Shown: positions 32,897 to 38,624 of the stretch, one piece after another
Position numbering within the stretch: position 1 is the first letter of the stretch
Layout: each line of letters opens with the position of its first letter
Source: Bacteroidota bacterium
GTDB taxonomy: Bacteria > Bacteroidota > Bacteroidia > Chitinophagales > Saprospiraceae
Direction of reading: 5' to 3'
DNA: 38,624 nt
Assembly (NCBI GenBank): GCA_018969455.1
Contig: JAGWYI010000002.1
Coordinates: forward strand, 1-38,624
Position numbers and translations under genes: made by a program
The notes under the pieces: generated by a model
Told to the model about the DNA's origin: nothing
Databases searched by the model: none
What the model saw: only the letters and a program-made list of their open reading frames with translations

Positions 32897-34684
32897 ATGA
32901 ATCAGTTTTTCAAGTTTCTCTTCGCTTCCTGTCTGGGCACTGCACTGGCTTTGTTTCTGCTGTTCTGGATCGGTGTGGGCTGGATTACAAGCCTGGCTGG
33001 CAGCGCAACTTCCAAAGAAAAAGTGCAGATTGAGGAAAATTCGGTACTCGAACTCGATTTTAAAAAACAAATTCCGGAAAAAACCAACAACCTGTCCATG
33101 GATCCCTTTGATGTGGAACAGGAAGACATTCTGGGTTTGCAAGATATTCTGAGCGCGATTAAAAAGGCTAAGGAAGATCCCGATATCAAAGGTATTTTCA
33201 TCAATGGCTCCGAAATTTCGGCGGGAAAGGCTACGGCATCGGCTATTCGCGCCGCTATTGCCGATTTTAAAACCGCCAACAAATTCGTAGTGGCCTATGC
33301 CCACTACTATACCCAGGGTGGTTATTACCTCGCTTCGGTGGCCGATTCTATTTTGATCAATCCTGTGGGTGGCGTCGACTTTCGCGGATATGCCAGCATG
33401 ATCGCTTTCTATAAAGGCATGCTCGATAAATTAGACATCAAAATGCGCATTTTTTATGCCGGCAAATTCAAAAGCGCCACCGAACCGTTCCGTTTCGATA
33501 AAATGAGCGATGAAAACAAACTTCAGGTGCGCGCATACCTGAATACCTTGTACGACAATACCGTGCAGGAAATTGCCCTGAGCCGCCACCTGACCGAAGC
33601 GCAGGTGCGCACCATCGCCGAAAATTACGACGGCCGCAGTGCAGAAAGTGCATTGAAAGCCCATCTGGTGGATCGCATTGCCCACGAAGACGAAGTTTAT
33701 GCCCTCTTGCGCCAAAACATCGGGCTAAAAGCCAAAGACAAAATCAACCGCATTTCGGTAGAAGATTATTTTAACAACCGCGCAAAAAAATTAGACCTGA
33801 GCACCAAAGACAAAATTGCCGTTGTATATGCCGAAGGTACCATCACGGATGGCGCCGAACGCCAGGCCGGAAATATTACCGACGGTGAATTTGTCAAAAT
33901 TTTGCGCAAAATCCGCAAAGACGAACATGTGCGCGCCGTAGTATTGCGCGTCAACTCCCCCGGCGGCAGCGTGCTGGCCAGCGAAAACATTTTCCGCGAA
34001 GTGATGCTGTGCAAAGCAGAAGGCAAACCCGTGGTGGTGAGCATGGGCGACGTAGCGGCATCCGGCGGGTATTACATCGCCTGCCAGGCCGACAGCATTT
34101 TTGCCGAAGCCAATACCATTACCGGCTCCATCGGGGTGTTCGGCATGATCCCGATTTTGCAAAATACCATGAAAAACAAACTGGGCATCACCTACGACAC
34201 GGTGCGCACCAGCAAATACGCCGCATTTGGCTCCCCTTTCATCGATTTTTCAGATGCCGAAGGTAAAATGATCCAGGATCGCATCGATGAGACCTACCAG
34301 AACTTCCTCGAAAAAGTAGCAACCGGACGCAAAAAAACGCCTGAACAAATCAATGAAATCGCGCAAGGACGCATCTGGGCAGGCTCAACAGCCAAATCAA
34401 TCGGTCTGGTTGACGATATCGGCGGACTCGACCGAGCCATCAAAGCAGCCGCTCAATTGGCGCATTTAGACAAATTCCGCACGACCGATTTCCCTCGAAC
34501 CCAAACCGGTATCGAACAATTTATCGAAAAAATAACGCGCAAAAAAGACCGCGATGATTACGTGCGCACCCACATGCTGCAATCGGAACTCGACGATTTG
34601 TACCCGATGTACAAAACCTTGCACGACATCCGCCAAAACAGCGGCATCCAGATGCGCATGCCGTATGAGTTGATGATCCGGTAA
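32897..34684 (+). CDS. sppA: Signal peptide peptidase SppA, 67K type
   Basis: N-terminal [27 protein letters not shown]...[49 protein letters not shown]...[40 protein letters not shown]. Confidence 0.95.
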
Positions 34685-34705: not shown

Positions 34706-34740
34706 CGCGGCCTCAAAAAGTTTCCCTTTTTGAGGCCGCG
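34706..34740. terminator. Strong hairpin terminator after sppA
   Basis: 15-bp perfect stem CGCGGCCTCAAAAAG/CTTTTTGAGGCCGCG, loop TTTCC. Confidence 0.8.
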
Positions 34741-34816
34741 TTGTTTGTAGCGGCATGCAACATGCCCGGAAGTCCTTATTTTTTGATGCGTTTTCCGGAA
34801 AATTGGCCGTTTTTCA
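34741..34816. repeat. Duplicated segment: copy 1 of lipoprotein 3' end plus its downstream sequence (partner 36524-36599)
   Basis: By manual alignment, 74 of 76 positions are identical to 36524-36599 (differences at 34758 and 34789). Confidence 0.9.
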
Positions 34817-34829
34817 TCCGGATGGTGTT
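34776..34829 (-). pseudogene. Remnant C-terminus of a lipoprotein paralog (NTIRMKNGQFSGKRIKK*)
   Basis: Minus-strand reading matches DTFRLKNGQFSGKLIKK* at the end of the intact gene at 36559-37086. An in-frame stop (34830-34832) lies directly upstream. Confidence 0.75.
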
Positions 34830-34962: not shown

Positions 34963-35043
34963 AAAACCTTGCACGACATCCGCCAAAACAGCGGCATCCA
35001 GATGCGTTTGTCGTTTGAATTGCTGATTGAACAGGGCGCGTAA
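34963..35043 (+). pseudogene. Second, divergent sppA 3' end (…[26 protein letters not shown])
   Basis: 34963-35006 is identical to 34613-34656 inside sppA. It then diverges but stays coding-compatible: [10 protein letters not shown] in the intact gene versus MRLSFELLIEQGA* here. Confidence 0.85.
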
Positions 35044-35104: not shown

Positions 35105-36694
35105 ATGCCAAAAAAACTCCCGCTCGGGCTTCAGGATTTCAAGGGCATCATCGAAGACGGGTACAAGTACATTGATAAAACCCGATACTTGTATCAGATG
35201 ACCTCAAGCGGCAAGTATTTCTTCCTCTCCCGCCCCCGCCGGTTTGGGAAATCCATCACCATCAATACCCTGCACGAACTGTTCAGCGGCAGCCGGGAAT
35301 TGTTTGAGGGCCTGTGGATTCAGGACAAATGGGACTGGAATAAAAAGCACCCGGTGTTGCGCCTTACTTTTACCGGAATCGGGTTTGTTGAACAGGGACT
35401 GGAAGCGGGCATGCATTATTTATTAAACAAAAACATCAAAGACCATGGATTGCCCGCCGTTGATTTGCCCGTCAGCGGAAAATTTGAATATTTGATTCAA
35501 GCACTCTCCGAAAGAGGCAAAGTAGTGGTGTTGATTGATGAATACGATGCGCCCATCATCCATTATTTGGGGGGCGACACCCAACGCGCCATCCAAAACC
35601 GGGAACTGTTGCGCGAATTTTATACCGTGCTCAAAAACAACGACAGCTACCTGGAATTCGTTTTCCTTACCGGCGTGAGCAAGTTCAGCAAAACCGGCAT
35701 TTTTTCCGGATTGAACAACCTCACCGACCTGAGCATACACCCCGCTTATGCTACCATGCTGGGCTACACCCAATCGGAACTGGAACACCATTTCAGCGAA
35801 GAAATTGAAAATACGGCGCAAACCATGAATCTGAGCCGGGAGGCGCTGCTTAATAAAATGAAGACCTGGTACAATGGATACCGGTTTCATTACCTGGCAG
35901 ATAAAGTGTACAACCCTGTTTCAGTGAACATGTTTTTTGATCGGCAGGAGTTCGAAAACTTCTGGTTTGCCACTGGAACGCCTACTTTTCTCATCAATTT
36001 ATTGAAAAAAGACGGCATTTTCGACCTCAATCACACCCGGCAAACGGTGCTGGACTTCGACAGTTTCGATCTGGAGGATATCCGAACCTATGGGCTGCTG
36101 TACCAAACCGGTTACCTCACCATTCAATCGCGCGATGCTTTTGGACAGTACACGCTCGATTACCCCAATCTGGAGGTTAAAAACGCCATGCTGGCTTATC
36201 TGCTGGAGGCTTTTGGCGGGGTATCGAAAGGGACAGGCATATCCACTGCCATCCGCATGGAAATTGCCTTTATGGAAAATGATCTGGAAACGGTAATCCG
36301 CAGTTTGCAAGCCATTTTTGCCGATATTCCCTATTTCCTGGTCGAGAAATACCCCGAAAAATTCTTCCACGCGGCGATACACCTCTTGTTTACCTACATC
36401 GGCATTCGCGTTCGCAGCGAGGTATGTACCACAGAAGGCCGGGCCGACAGCATGGTGGAAACACCCACCCATGTGTATATTTTAGAATACAAACTGGATA
36501 AAAGTCCGCAGGCAGCACTCGAGTTGTTTGTAGCGGCATGTAACATGCCCGGAAGTCCTTATTTTTTGATGAGTTTTCCGGAAAATTGGCCGTTTTTCAA
36601 ACGAAACGTGTCTGGATATGCGGAATACGGCCGGACTTTAACAATAAAACTCAGGTTAAATACACCTTTTATTTCTTTCGTAATTGTATCATAG
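35105..36694 (+). CDS. AAA-ATPase-like / PD-(D/E)XK nuclease superfamily protein with an apparently replaced C-terminus
   Basis: LPLGLQDFKGIIEDGYKYIDKTRYLYQMTSSGKYFFLSRPRRFGKSITINTL (AAA-ATPase-like, Walker A), VVLIDEYDAPI (Walker B), RSEVCTTEGRADSMVETPTHVYILEYKLDKS (PD-(D/E)XK: GRAD...EYK). From ~36524 the frame runs through sequence antisense to the neighbouring lipoprotein gene. Confidence 0.85.
   Translation: MPKKLPLGLQDFKGIIEDGYKYIDKTRYLYQMTSSGKYFFLSRPRRFGKSITINTLHELFSGSRELFEGLWIQDKWDWNKKHPVLRLTFTGIGFVEQGLEAGMHYLLNKNIKDHGLPAVDLPVSGKFEYLIQALSERGKVVVLIDEYDAPIIHYLGGDTQRAIQNRELLREFYTVLKNNDSYLEFVFLTGVSKFSKTGIFSGLNNLTDLSIHPAYATMLGYTQSELEHHFSEEIENTAQTMNLSREALLNKMKTWYNGYRFHYLADKVYNPVSVNMFFDRQEFENFWFATGTPTFLINLLKKDGIFDLNHTRQTVLDFDSFDLEDIRTYGLLYQTGYLTIQSRDAFGQYTLDYPNLEVKNAMLAYLLEAFGGVSKGTGISTAIRMEIAFMENDLETVIRSLQAIFADIPYFLVEKYPEKFFHAAIHLLFTYIGIRVRSEVCTTEGRADSMVETPTHVYILEYKLDKSPQAALELFVAACNMPGSPYFLMSFPENWPFFKRNVSGYAEYGRTLTIKLRLNTPFISFVIVS
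36524..36599. repeat. Duplicated segment: copy 2 (partner 34741-34816)
   Basis: 74 of 76 positions identical to 34741-34816 by manual alignment. Confidence 0.9.
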
Positions 36695-37086
36695 GCAGTT
36701 AATGACACCACATTTGTACTGCTATCAGATTCTAAAAGGTCGTATTCTCCCATGGGTTGATCAGCATCCCACATTGACAGGGATGCATCAAGTTGATCCA
36801 CCCCATAAGCATATCTATTTACTCTAAATGTGCCCAGACGCGGTGGAATATCAGAAATTATGAGAGATTCCTTTAAATAAAAGTCTTGCCAAAATGAATC
36901 CAGTTCCACCACCAAATTGGTGTGGTCTATCAAATCAACCCAACATGCTGGATGACCTGTCCACGGTTTTCCATTTCGTTCAGCGCTGGCAGTTCCGTAG
37001 TAGCCATCAGGCAAGGAAGGCTTGGCAGGCTCCTTTTTGCAGGCAAAGAGGATGAAAATAAGGGCGAAGAATAGAATGTGTTTCAT
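36559..37086 (-). CDS. Hypothetical lipoprotein
   Basis: MKHILFFALIFILFACKKEPAKPS is a lipoprotein signal with lipobox. Start moved from 37119 to 37086. C-terminus RLKNGQFSGKLIKK is repeated as a remnant at 34776-34829. Confidence 0.75.
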   Translation of the reverse strand: MKHILFFALIFILFACKKEPAKPSLPDGYYGTASAERNGKPWTGHPACWVDLIDHTNLVVELDSFWQDFYLKESLIISDIPPRLGTFRVNRYAYGVDQLDASLSMWDADQPMGEYDLLESDSSTNVVSLTAYDTITKEIKGVFNLSFIVKVRPYSAYPDTFRLKNGQFSGKLIKK

Positions 37087-37110
37087 AGGAGCAATGTTTT
37101 TTTGAAACCT

Positions 37111-37147
37111 TTGAGGCATCGAACCTTGGACAGGTTCGATGCCTCAA
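37111..37147. terminator. Long perfect hairpin between metalloprotease and lipoprotein genes (terminator or leader structure)
   Basis: 15-bp stem TTGAGGCATCGAACC/GGTTCGATGCCTCAA with loop TTGGACA. No canonical U-tract directly after the stem on the minus strand. Confidence 0.6.
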
Positions 37148-37166
37148 GAGAGATAAAGTTAAAAGG

Positions 37167-38624
37167 TTATTTTCCGGTTATGGCAAGCTTATGAACACGG
37201 CCAGATGTGCCGGACTGATTTAACCTGATCAGATACAATCCTGCCGGAAGTTTTGCGACATCAATTTGGAAGTTCTGTATATCCTGACCATTCTTATTTA
37301 AGGTTTTTAAAATACATACCTCCCCTGTCAGATTTGTTACAACAACTTCGATGTCCTGTTTGATTGGCGTATCTAATTGAATTTGAATGTTATTAATTGC
37401 CGGATTTGGAATAATTTGAAAATCGGCCGGGAAGCCTTCTGGTTCTTTTTCATCTCTTTCATTAGAAGATGGCCTGTAATGCGGACATTTGAGGTAATCA
37501 GAGTAAGCCCATGTAGAACTAGTTGCGTAATCTGTACCATTCGTTACGGTTAATTCTACATAAATCATCCCGTAAAAATTACCCGGGATCGTATAATTAA
37601 AAGTGCTTTGTGAATTATTCGGATTATAGTCAATCCAGGCGCCGTTACCCAATCTGTACTTCCAGTAAAATTGATATGGTCCAAATCCACCAAATGCAGT
37701 TCCAGTCAAACTGATTGAATAACCTGGACAAGTAAATGGAATTGGCCCATTTATGATATTAACATTTATAGCATGCGACTCACGATAGTTTGCTATTCTG
37801 CAGGCAGCATTTCTCAATATTTTTGCATTGTTACTTTCTCCAGCAACGCCGGTTTCTTTACCATTAAACTCAACACCCGGATTTGAGTAATAAAGAATTT
37901 TTGCATATTGACCATAATTACATGCATTAACTATTGTTCTATAATATCTTTGAAAATTAAGCAGTCCTAAATGGAATCCTTTTCCCCAGTTGTGCGCATG
38001 CGCATCAGATAATCCTGAATTGTCATGATTTAGGTAGCAATCAGTATCCAATTGATGTCTGCAACCAAAAAGGTGTGCAAACTCATGCGCGAAAGTGTAG
38101 GTAGGCGCATTTGCGAACCCCGTCTCAACGACAGCAAAAGCATGGTTGTTACCATCCGCTTCAGAATCACCAAAATTTATTACCGCACCAGAAAAAAAGG
38201 TATAAACTTCAGGTACCATAATTAAAACAAGGTCCGCATTGTATGCATTCCTTAACATTCTAACAGCAGAGTTTGCTCCGATAATTGTTGTCGTATCTGC
38301 TCCCCACATTCCAGTAGGCTCAAAACCTGACACAAGTTGTACTCCTACTAAATTAGGGTTCAGCCGGGATTTTGGCACAACGCTATTTGTAAGTGCCGTC
38401 ACTGTATTTGAAAATGCAAGGTATGCCCTGCTTATTATATCTGGATAAGCATTCAGCGCTGCTTGAGTGTAAAGGATGAGTACATCCACGTTCGGGCATT
38501 GCTCCCTTTCATCTATGATTTCATTCGCATCTGAAATTACCCCTCCCCCGCTGATGCACTCTGAATTTCCTTCCGAAATGTTGTATTTTACCAAAGCATT
38601 CAAGTTATCACCAAGTGCCGGAAT
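37167..38624 (-). CDS. Zinc metalloprotease (reprolysin/M12B-like, HExxHxxGxxH) with T9SS type A sorting domain; 5' end beyond window
   Basis: TYTFAHEFAHLFGCRHQLDTD zinc-binding motif; VDVLILYTQAALNAYPDIISRAYLAFSNTV; C-terminal FQIIPNPAINNIQIQL...GLYLIRLNQSGTSGRVHKLAITGK. The frame stays open to 38624 (IPALGDNLNALVKYN...), so the ATG at 38603 is probably not the start. Confidence 0.85.
   Translation of the reverse strand: MPALGDNLNALVKYNISEGNSECISGGGVISDANEIIDEREQCPNVDVLILYTQAALNAYPDIISRAYLAFSNTVTALTNSVVPKSRLNPNLVGVQLVSGFEPTGMWGADTTTIIGANSAVRMLRNAYNADLVLIMVPEVYTFFSGAVINFGDSEADGNNHAFAVVETGFANAPTYTFAHEFAHLFGCRHQLDTDCYLNHDNSGLSDAHAHNWGKGFHLGLLNFQRYYRTIVNACNYGQYAKILYYSNPGVEFNGKETGVAGESNNAKILRNAACRIANYRESHAINVNIINGPIPFTCPGYSISLTGTAFGGFGPYQFYWKYRLGNGAWIDYNPNNSQSTFNYTIPGNFYGMIYVELTVTNGTDYATSSTWAYSDYLKCPHYRPSSNERDEKEPEGFPADFQIIPNPAINNIQIQLDTPIKQDIEVVVTNLTGEVCILKTLNKNGQDIQNFQIDVAKLPAGLYLIRLNQSGTSGRVHKLAITGK

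Follow-up and report, generated by a model that had tools for sequence, protein, structure and literature searches.

The aberrant C-terminus of the AAA-ATPase/PD-(D/E)XK open reading frame (ORF) at positions 35105 to 36694 (+ strand) is probably the result of a chimeric contig join, misjoined at a branch of the assembly graph or mixed from two strains, and not of a gene fusion. Here, "the window" refers to the whole stretch of DNA analyzed (38,624 nucleotides), which is contig C175 of a draft genome with 774 contigs (4.57 Mb, 99.35% complete, 2.54% contamination). A first-pass annotation of this DNA had proposed that the protein acquired a new C-terminus from the antisense strand of its neighbor. 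This proposal is not supported, as the canonical 3' end of the same gene was found on a second contig of the same assembly (C686), in syntenic position before mutS. With the canonical ending and the expected neighbor both present on another contig, no newly evolved protein end is therefore needed.

The ORF encodes 529 amino acids and, up to codon 473, belongs to the AAA-ATPase_like/PDDEXK_9 (DUF1703) family. The AAA-ATPase_like domain (Pfam PF09820) was recovered along its full length (E value of 1.6e-56, profile positions 1 to 201 of 201), while PDDEXK_9 (PF08011) was matched only from profile positions 2 to 54 of 105, compared to 2 to 105 in the paralogs. The alignments with these paralogs (60 to 68% identity) all ended at window residue 474, and ca. 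40 C-terminal residues were absent according to the family alignment. Thus, the family likeness to about residue 473 and the loss of some 40 to 50 typical residues expected by the first-pass annotation were both borne out. Taking contig C686 as the reference for the normal gene, the first base at which the window departs from it is 36523. The genuine part of the gene (35105 to 36522, +; Pfam PF09820 and PF08011, alignment A1) consequently comprises 472 codons plus two bases of codon 473, and the anomalous tail extends from 36523 to 36694 (+). The earlier placement of the shift, at a duplication breakpoint at 36523/36524, was right in that the switch coincides with the boundary of a repeat, but the switch lies one base earlier, at 36522/36523.

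As had also been recognized, the final 56 codons of the ORF run antisense to a lipoprotein gene (36559 to 37119, −), covering its 3' end and 3' flank, and the two convergent ORFs overlap by 136 bp. Runs of at least 56 open codons begin at 1.7% of the start positions on the + strand of 36523 to 38624; that is, the open tail is uncommon, yet unremarkable after selection. None of ca. 22 homologous C-termini (ORFs reaching their own stop) carried it, and in this sample the fusion was thus not seen in related species. We had considered whether the tail is an alternative C-terminus already known from the DUF1703 family and rejected this, given that no homolog carries it, although a bad join and a true fusion are not told apart by this absence alone.

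The alternative continuation is found on contig C686 (G000:C686), the first 98 bases of which are 100% identical to window positions 36425 to 36522 (+), with the divergence starting exactly at 36523. Past base 98, C686 continues in frame and encodes DQIKQKKYYRSAWTTGKPVVGVGVNFSSKTRNIEAWVAEEL followed by a stop codon, the canonical C-terminus of the DUF1703 family, and the ca. 22 homologous ORFs with a stop of their own end in the same way. The composite of window and C686 measures 513 amino acids, close to the 514 to 515 of the nearest paralogs, and the C686 fragment matches PDDEXK_9 positions 28 to 105 of 105. Since the paralogs of the same genome show at most 74% DNA identity to the stretch shared by C686 and the window, C686 holds the 3' end of the window's own AAA gene and not that of a paralog. 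The AAA gene is followed on C686 by mutS, on the opposite strand, and between both genes (L060, positions 250 to 370) there is a short tandem repeat of GCCTCGCGYGAACACAGGYAAATA-like units.

The effect of the switch on the nuclease domain is considerable. The PD-(D/E)XK signature (D and ExK) is present in the window ORF, with D448, E461, and K463 invariant in alignment A1. To this extent, the statement that the nuclease motif is retained is correct (D...EYK remains). However, the core topology of the family includes a helix bearing the motif IV glutamine and the last core strands (Knizewski et al., PMC1913061), and the window ORF lacks the helix with this Gln (the second core helix) as well as those strands, all of which are present in C686. 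Q474, I475, and Y480 are invariant in alignment A2, while the residues of the window ORF past 473 are unrelated, and a full-length PDDEXK_9 domain is missing. The AlphaFold2 model of a full-length paralog (on contig C689) displayed a helix at residues 468 to 477 and strands at 490 to 499 and 504 to 513, with pLDDT values of 80 to 87. In the model of the window ORF, residues 471 to 529 were below 50 almost throughout, and the tail was predicted to be disordered (pLDDT of 32 to 50) and devoid of strands. The ORF, if expressed as read, is unlikely to be a working nuclease or a functional chimera. Searches with the AAA protein as the query gave no match in PADLOC or among PDB sequences, and the best Foldseek matches were ORC-type AAA+ ATPases with low TM-scores, providing no information about the tail.

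Synteny also points to C686. Immediately 5' of the AAA gene lies sppA (signal peptide peptidase, S49; 32897 to 34684, +; Pfam/NCBIfam TIGR00705), of which the bin has a single full copy. In G007 and G023, the two closest sister species (SppA 79% identical), mutS follows sppA in convergent orientation at a distance of ca. 10 to 14 bp, and no AAA gene is located between them. Continuing the window with C686 places mutS next to sppA again, and this synteny leads us to infer that the orthologous locus, sppA-AAA-mutS, consists of window positions 1 to 36522 joined to base 99 and onward of C686. In this locus, the final 2.1 kb of the window, with the lipoprotein and M12 protease genes, is foreign. 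The real protein is most likely an ordinary DUF1703-type AAA-ATPase/nuclease of ca. 513 amino acids, inserted between sppA and mutS in the window's species. The GC content at third codon positions (GC3) was 0.32 to 0.38 in the lipoprotein/M12 segment versus 0.58 to 0.61 in sppA, AAA, and mutS, which is only suggestive of a foreign segment; genes for secreted proteins may differ in GC3 from housekeeping genes within one genome.

The foreign segment comprises two genes (36559 to 38603) that are also paired elsewhere in the genus. The lipoprotein gene has a 51% identical ortholog in G007, on another contig and beside hemB, and its partner in the genus is the M12/reprolysin-like metalloprotease with a T9SS sorting tail (37167 to 38624, −; Pfam/NCBIfam), cut here by the contig end. 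Adjacent pairs of such a protease and a small lipoprotein, sometimes with two or more lipoproteins, recur in the relatives (G008, G004, G005, G001, and G013). The stretch from 36523 to 36611 (−; copy A') comprises the 3' end of the lipoprotein gene, which is native coding sequence and ends in NGQFSGKLIKK (G007 ortholog, NGKFSGKLIKK), and 36 bp of flank. A fragment similar to the terminal codons of a lipoprotein gene (RMKNGQFSGKRIKK and a stop codon) plus 36 bp of 3' flank is located behind sppA (34742 to 34828, −; copy A), with 96% identity over 80 nt to 36520 to 36599. The duplication invoked in the earlier annotation exists as a repeat pair (34737 to 34828 and 36520 to 36611; 91% identity over 92 nt, 96% over the first 80), but it is more simply described as the lipoprotein gene's own 3' end and flank plus a similar tail fragment behind sppA. 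The possibility that the 92-bp repeat is a dispersed element was rejected, as only two copies exist in the bin and there was no match in Rfam.

We looked for the source locus of 36523 to 38624 in the bin by way of hemB and did not find it. What follows hemB on contig C510 (L105, reverse complement of ca. 1303 to 1380) is a lipoprotein-tail remnant, GQFSGKMFKK followed by a stop codon, at the place where G007 has an intact lipoprotein; the rest of the place is taken by a different gene (ORF 1376 to 1858). This remnant and copy A suggest that lipoprotein genes have been replaced up to their last ca. 12 codons. No overlap of the right end of the window with another contig was found either. The region between sppA and the AAA gene is a patchwork in which copy A sits behind a bidirectional terminator-like hairpin (34706 to 34740, 15-bp stem) that follows sppA. 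Farther downstream, the sppA 3' end occurs again in diverged form (34963 to 35043, +), with a 44-bp exact match to 34613 to 34677 before the two diverge; one of the divergent endings reads MRLSFELLIEQGA plus a stop codon. This doubled 3' end may be a strain mosaic or a remnant of the arrival of the AAA gene.

Breaks at AAA genes are frequent in these assemblies. At least 19 of about 67 AAA matches in the genus started or ended ca. 10 bp or less from a contig edge. A second AAA 3' end of the bin is also located at a contig-end branch, where the end of C689 and the start of C135 share 79 identical bp. At that place (C689 14064 to 14142 and C135 1 to 94; L063 and L127), an intact AAA gene is preceded by a stray piece of an AAA/PDDEXK gene, made up of its last ca. 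31 codons and fused to a degenerate frame; the nearby protein is, by the appearance of its sequence, presumably similar to lumazine synthase. Among 17 random contig starts in the bin, there was no comparable exact overlap save for one dispersed repeat. This repeat (G000:C35:1-120, ca. 105 bp) had some 27 further matches among those listed, at 79 to 93% identity, throughout the genome. A scan of genome contigs gave a single distant relative.

Taken together, these results are best explained by 36522/36523 being a branch point of a metagenome-type draft assembly at which the contig probably took a wrong or other-strain continuation. The genuine gene goes on through C686, from the same 98 bp to the canonical PD-(D/E)XK C-terminus and mutS. 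The last 2.1 kb would have been appended from elsewhere, as short-read assemblies break or are misjoined at AAA/PDDEXK genes and at the small repeats next to them. The 529-residue "chimera" would then arise only from translating across the join, and the organism would not make it. The exact overlap with C686, the fit in length of the composite, the sister-species synteny, the single sppA, and the lipoprotein ortholog beside hemB elsewhere in G007 all favor a join artifact, along with the small size of the foreign part, its GC3-poor composition and terminal position, and the tendency of AAA genes to lie at contig edges. Against it, the homology of 77 bp between copies A (34742) and A' (36523) begins precisely at the junction, which a random misjoin would not predict, no single k-mer size fits overlaps of both 98 and 79 bp, and GC3 may differ by gene class.

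The coincidence at the junction is the main reason why we keep a genuine rearrangement, carried by a fraction of the population, as a minority explanation, unlikely but well above the others. The M12-lipoprotein unit, ending at 36523, would have recombined into the AAA gene and truncated it, with C686 as the intact allele from other cells and the variant AAA as a pseudogene product. It is as if a defined end of the lipoprotein unit had been joined at two places, and the patchwork 5' of the AAA gene (lipoprotein tail, AT-rich spacer, and second sppA 3' end) fits such a history, as does the frequent recombination of DUF1703 paralogs in Cardinium (PMC6387759). However, C686 begins right at the branch and contains nothing from the far flank of an insertion, which a contig of a rearranged chromosome would be expected to include, and the bin has one sppA and no further contig copy of the lipoprotein end. 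Somewhat more doubtful still is the specific form in which some cells truly carry the join and M12-lipoprotein units with a defined end (the 36-bp flank with its GGCATG-NNN-CATGCC hairpin) recombine beside other genes, leaving lipoprotein tails behind sppA and beside hemB and truncating the AAA/PDDEXK gene. Much less credible is a protein that remains functional with a new C-terminus taken from antisense sequence: the open 56 codons and the conserved D...EYK speak for it, but the motif IV helix and the last core strand are missing, the tail is modeled without structure, and no relative has it. Ordinary decay, with the AAA gene truncated species-wide and C686 as a separate second copy of its 3' end, is the least probable of all; interrupted AAA copies do occur in relatives (G018 and G010), but on C686 the next gene is mutS, whose partner by synteny is the only sppA, and a separate locus would break this synteny.

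With a wrong or strain-mixed join as the preferred explanation, the case illustrates how a draft genome can mimic a striking gene birth, complete with an antisense-derived C-terminus and a convergent overlap. Checking contig overlaps and synteny resolves most of it, and databases translating contig C175 would hold a false fusion protein.

Compared with the DUF1703 family, the window ORF is alike in its N-terminal 473 residues, in the RPRRFGKS Walker A variant, the DEYD Walker B, and the GRAD...EYK motif, as well as in being multicopy in the genus. It is unlike the family in ending in lipoprotein antisense and lacking the last 40 residues, which C686 supplies. Chimeric and strain-mixed contigs in metagenome assemblies have been addressed before (e.g., PMC9661791 and PMC8201837), and the window resembles them in that the interior of the contig exactly overlaps the start of another and synteny is broken. 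A close parallel within the family is that of Cardinium cCpun, in which partial DUF1703 genes were found near scaffold borders and were considered by the authors as possibly artifactually truncated (PMC6387759). The same expanded family is cut at contig edges in both cases, but the genes of cCpun simply stop at the edge, while the window contig runs on into unrelated DNA.
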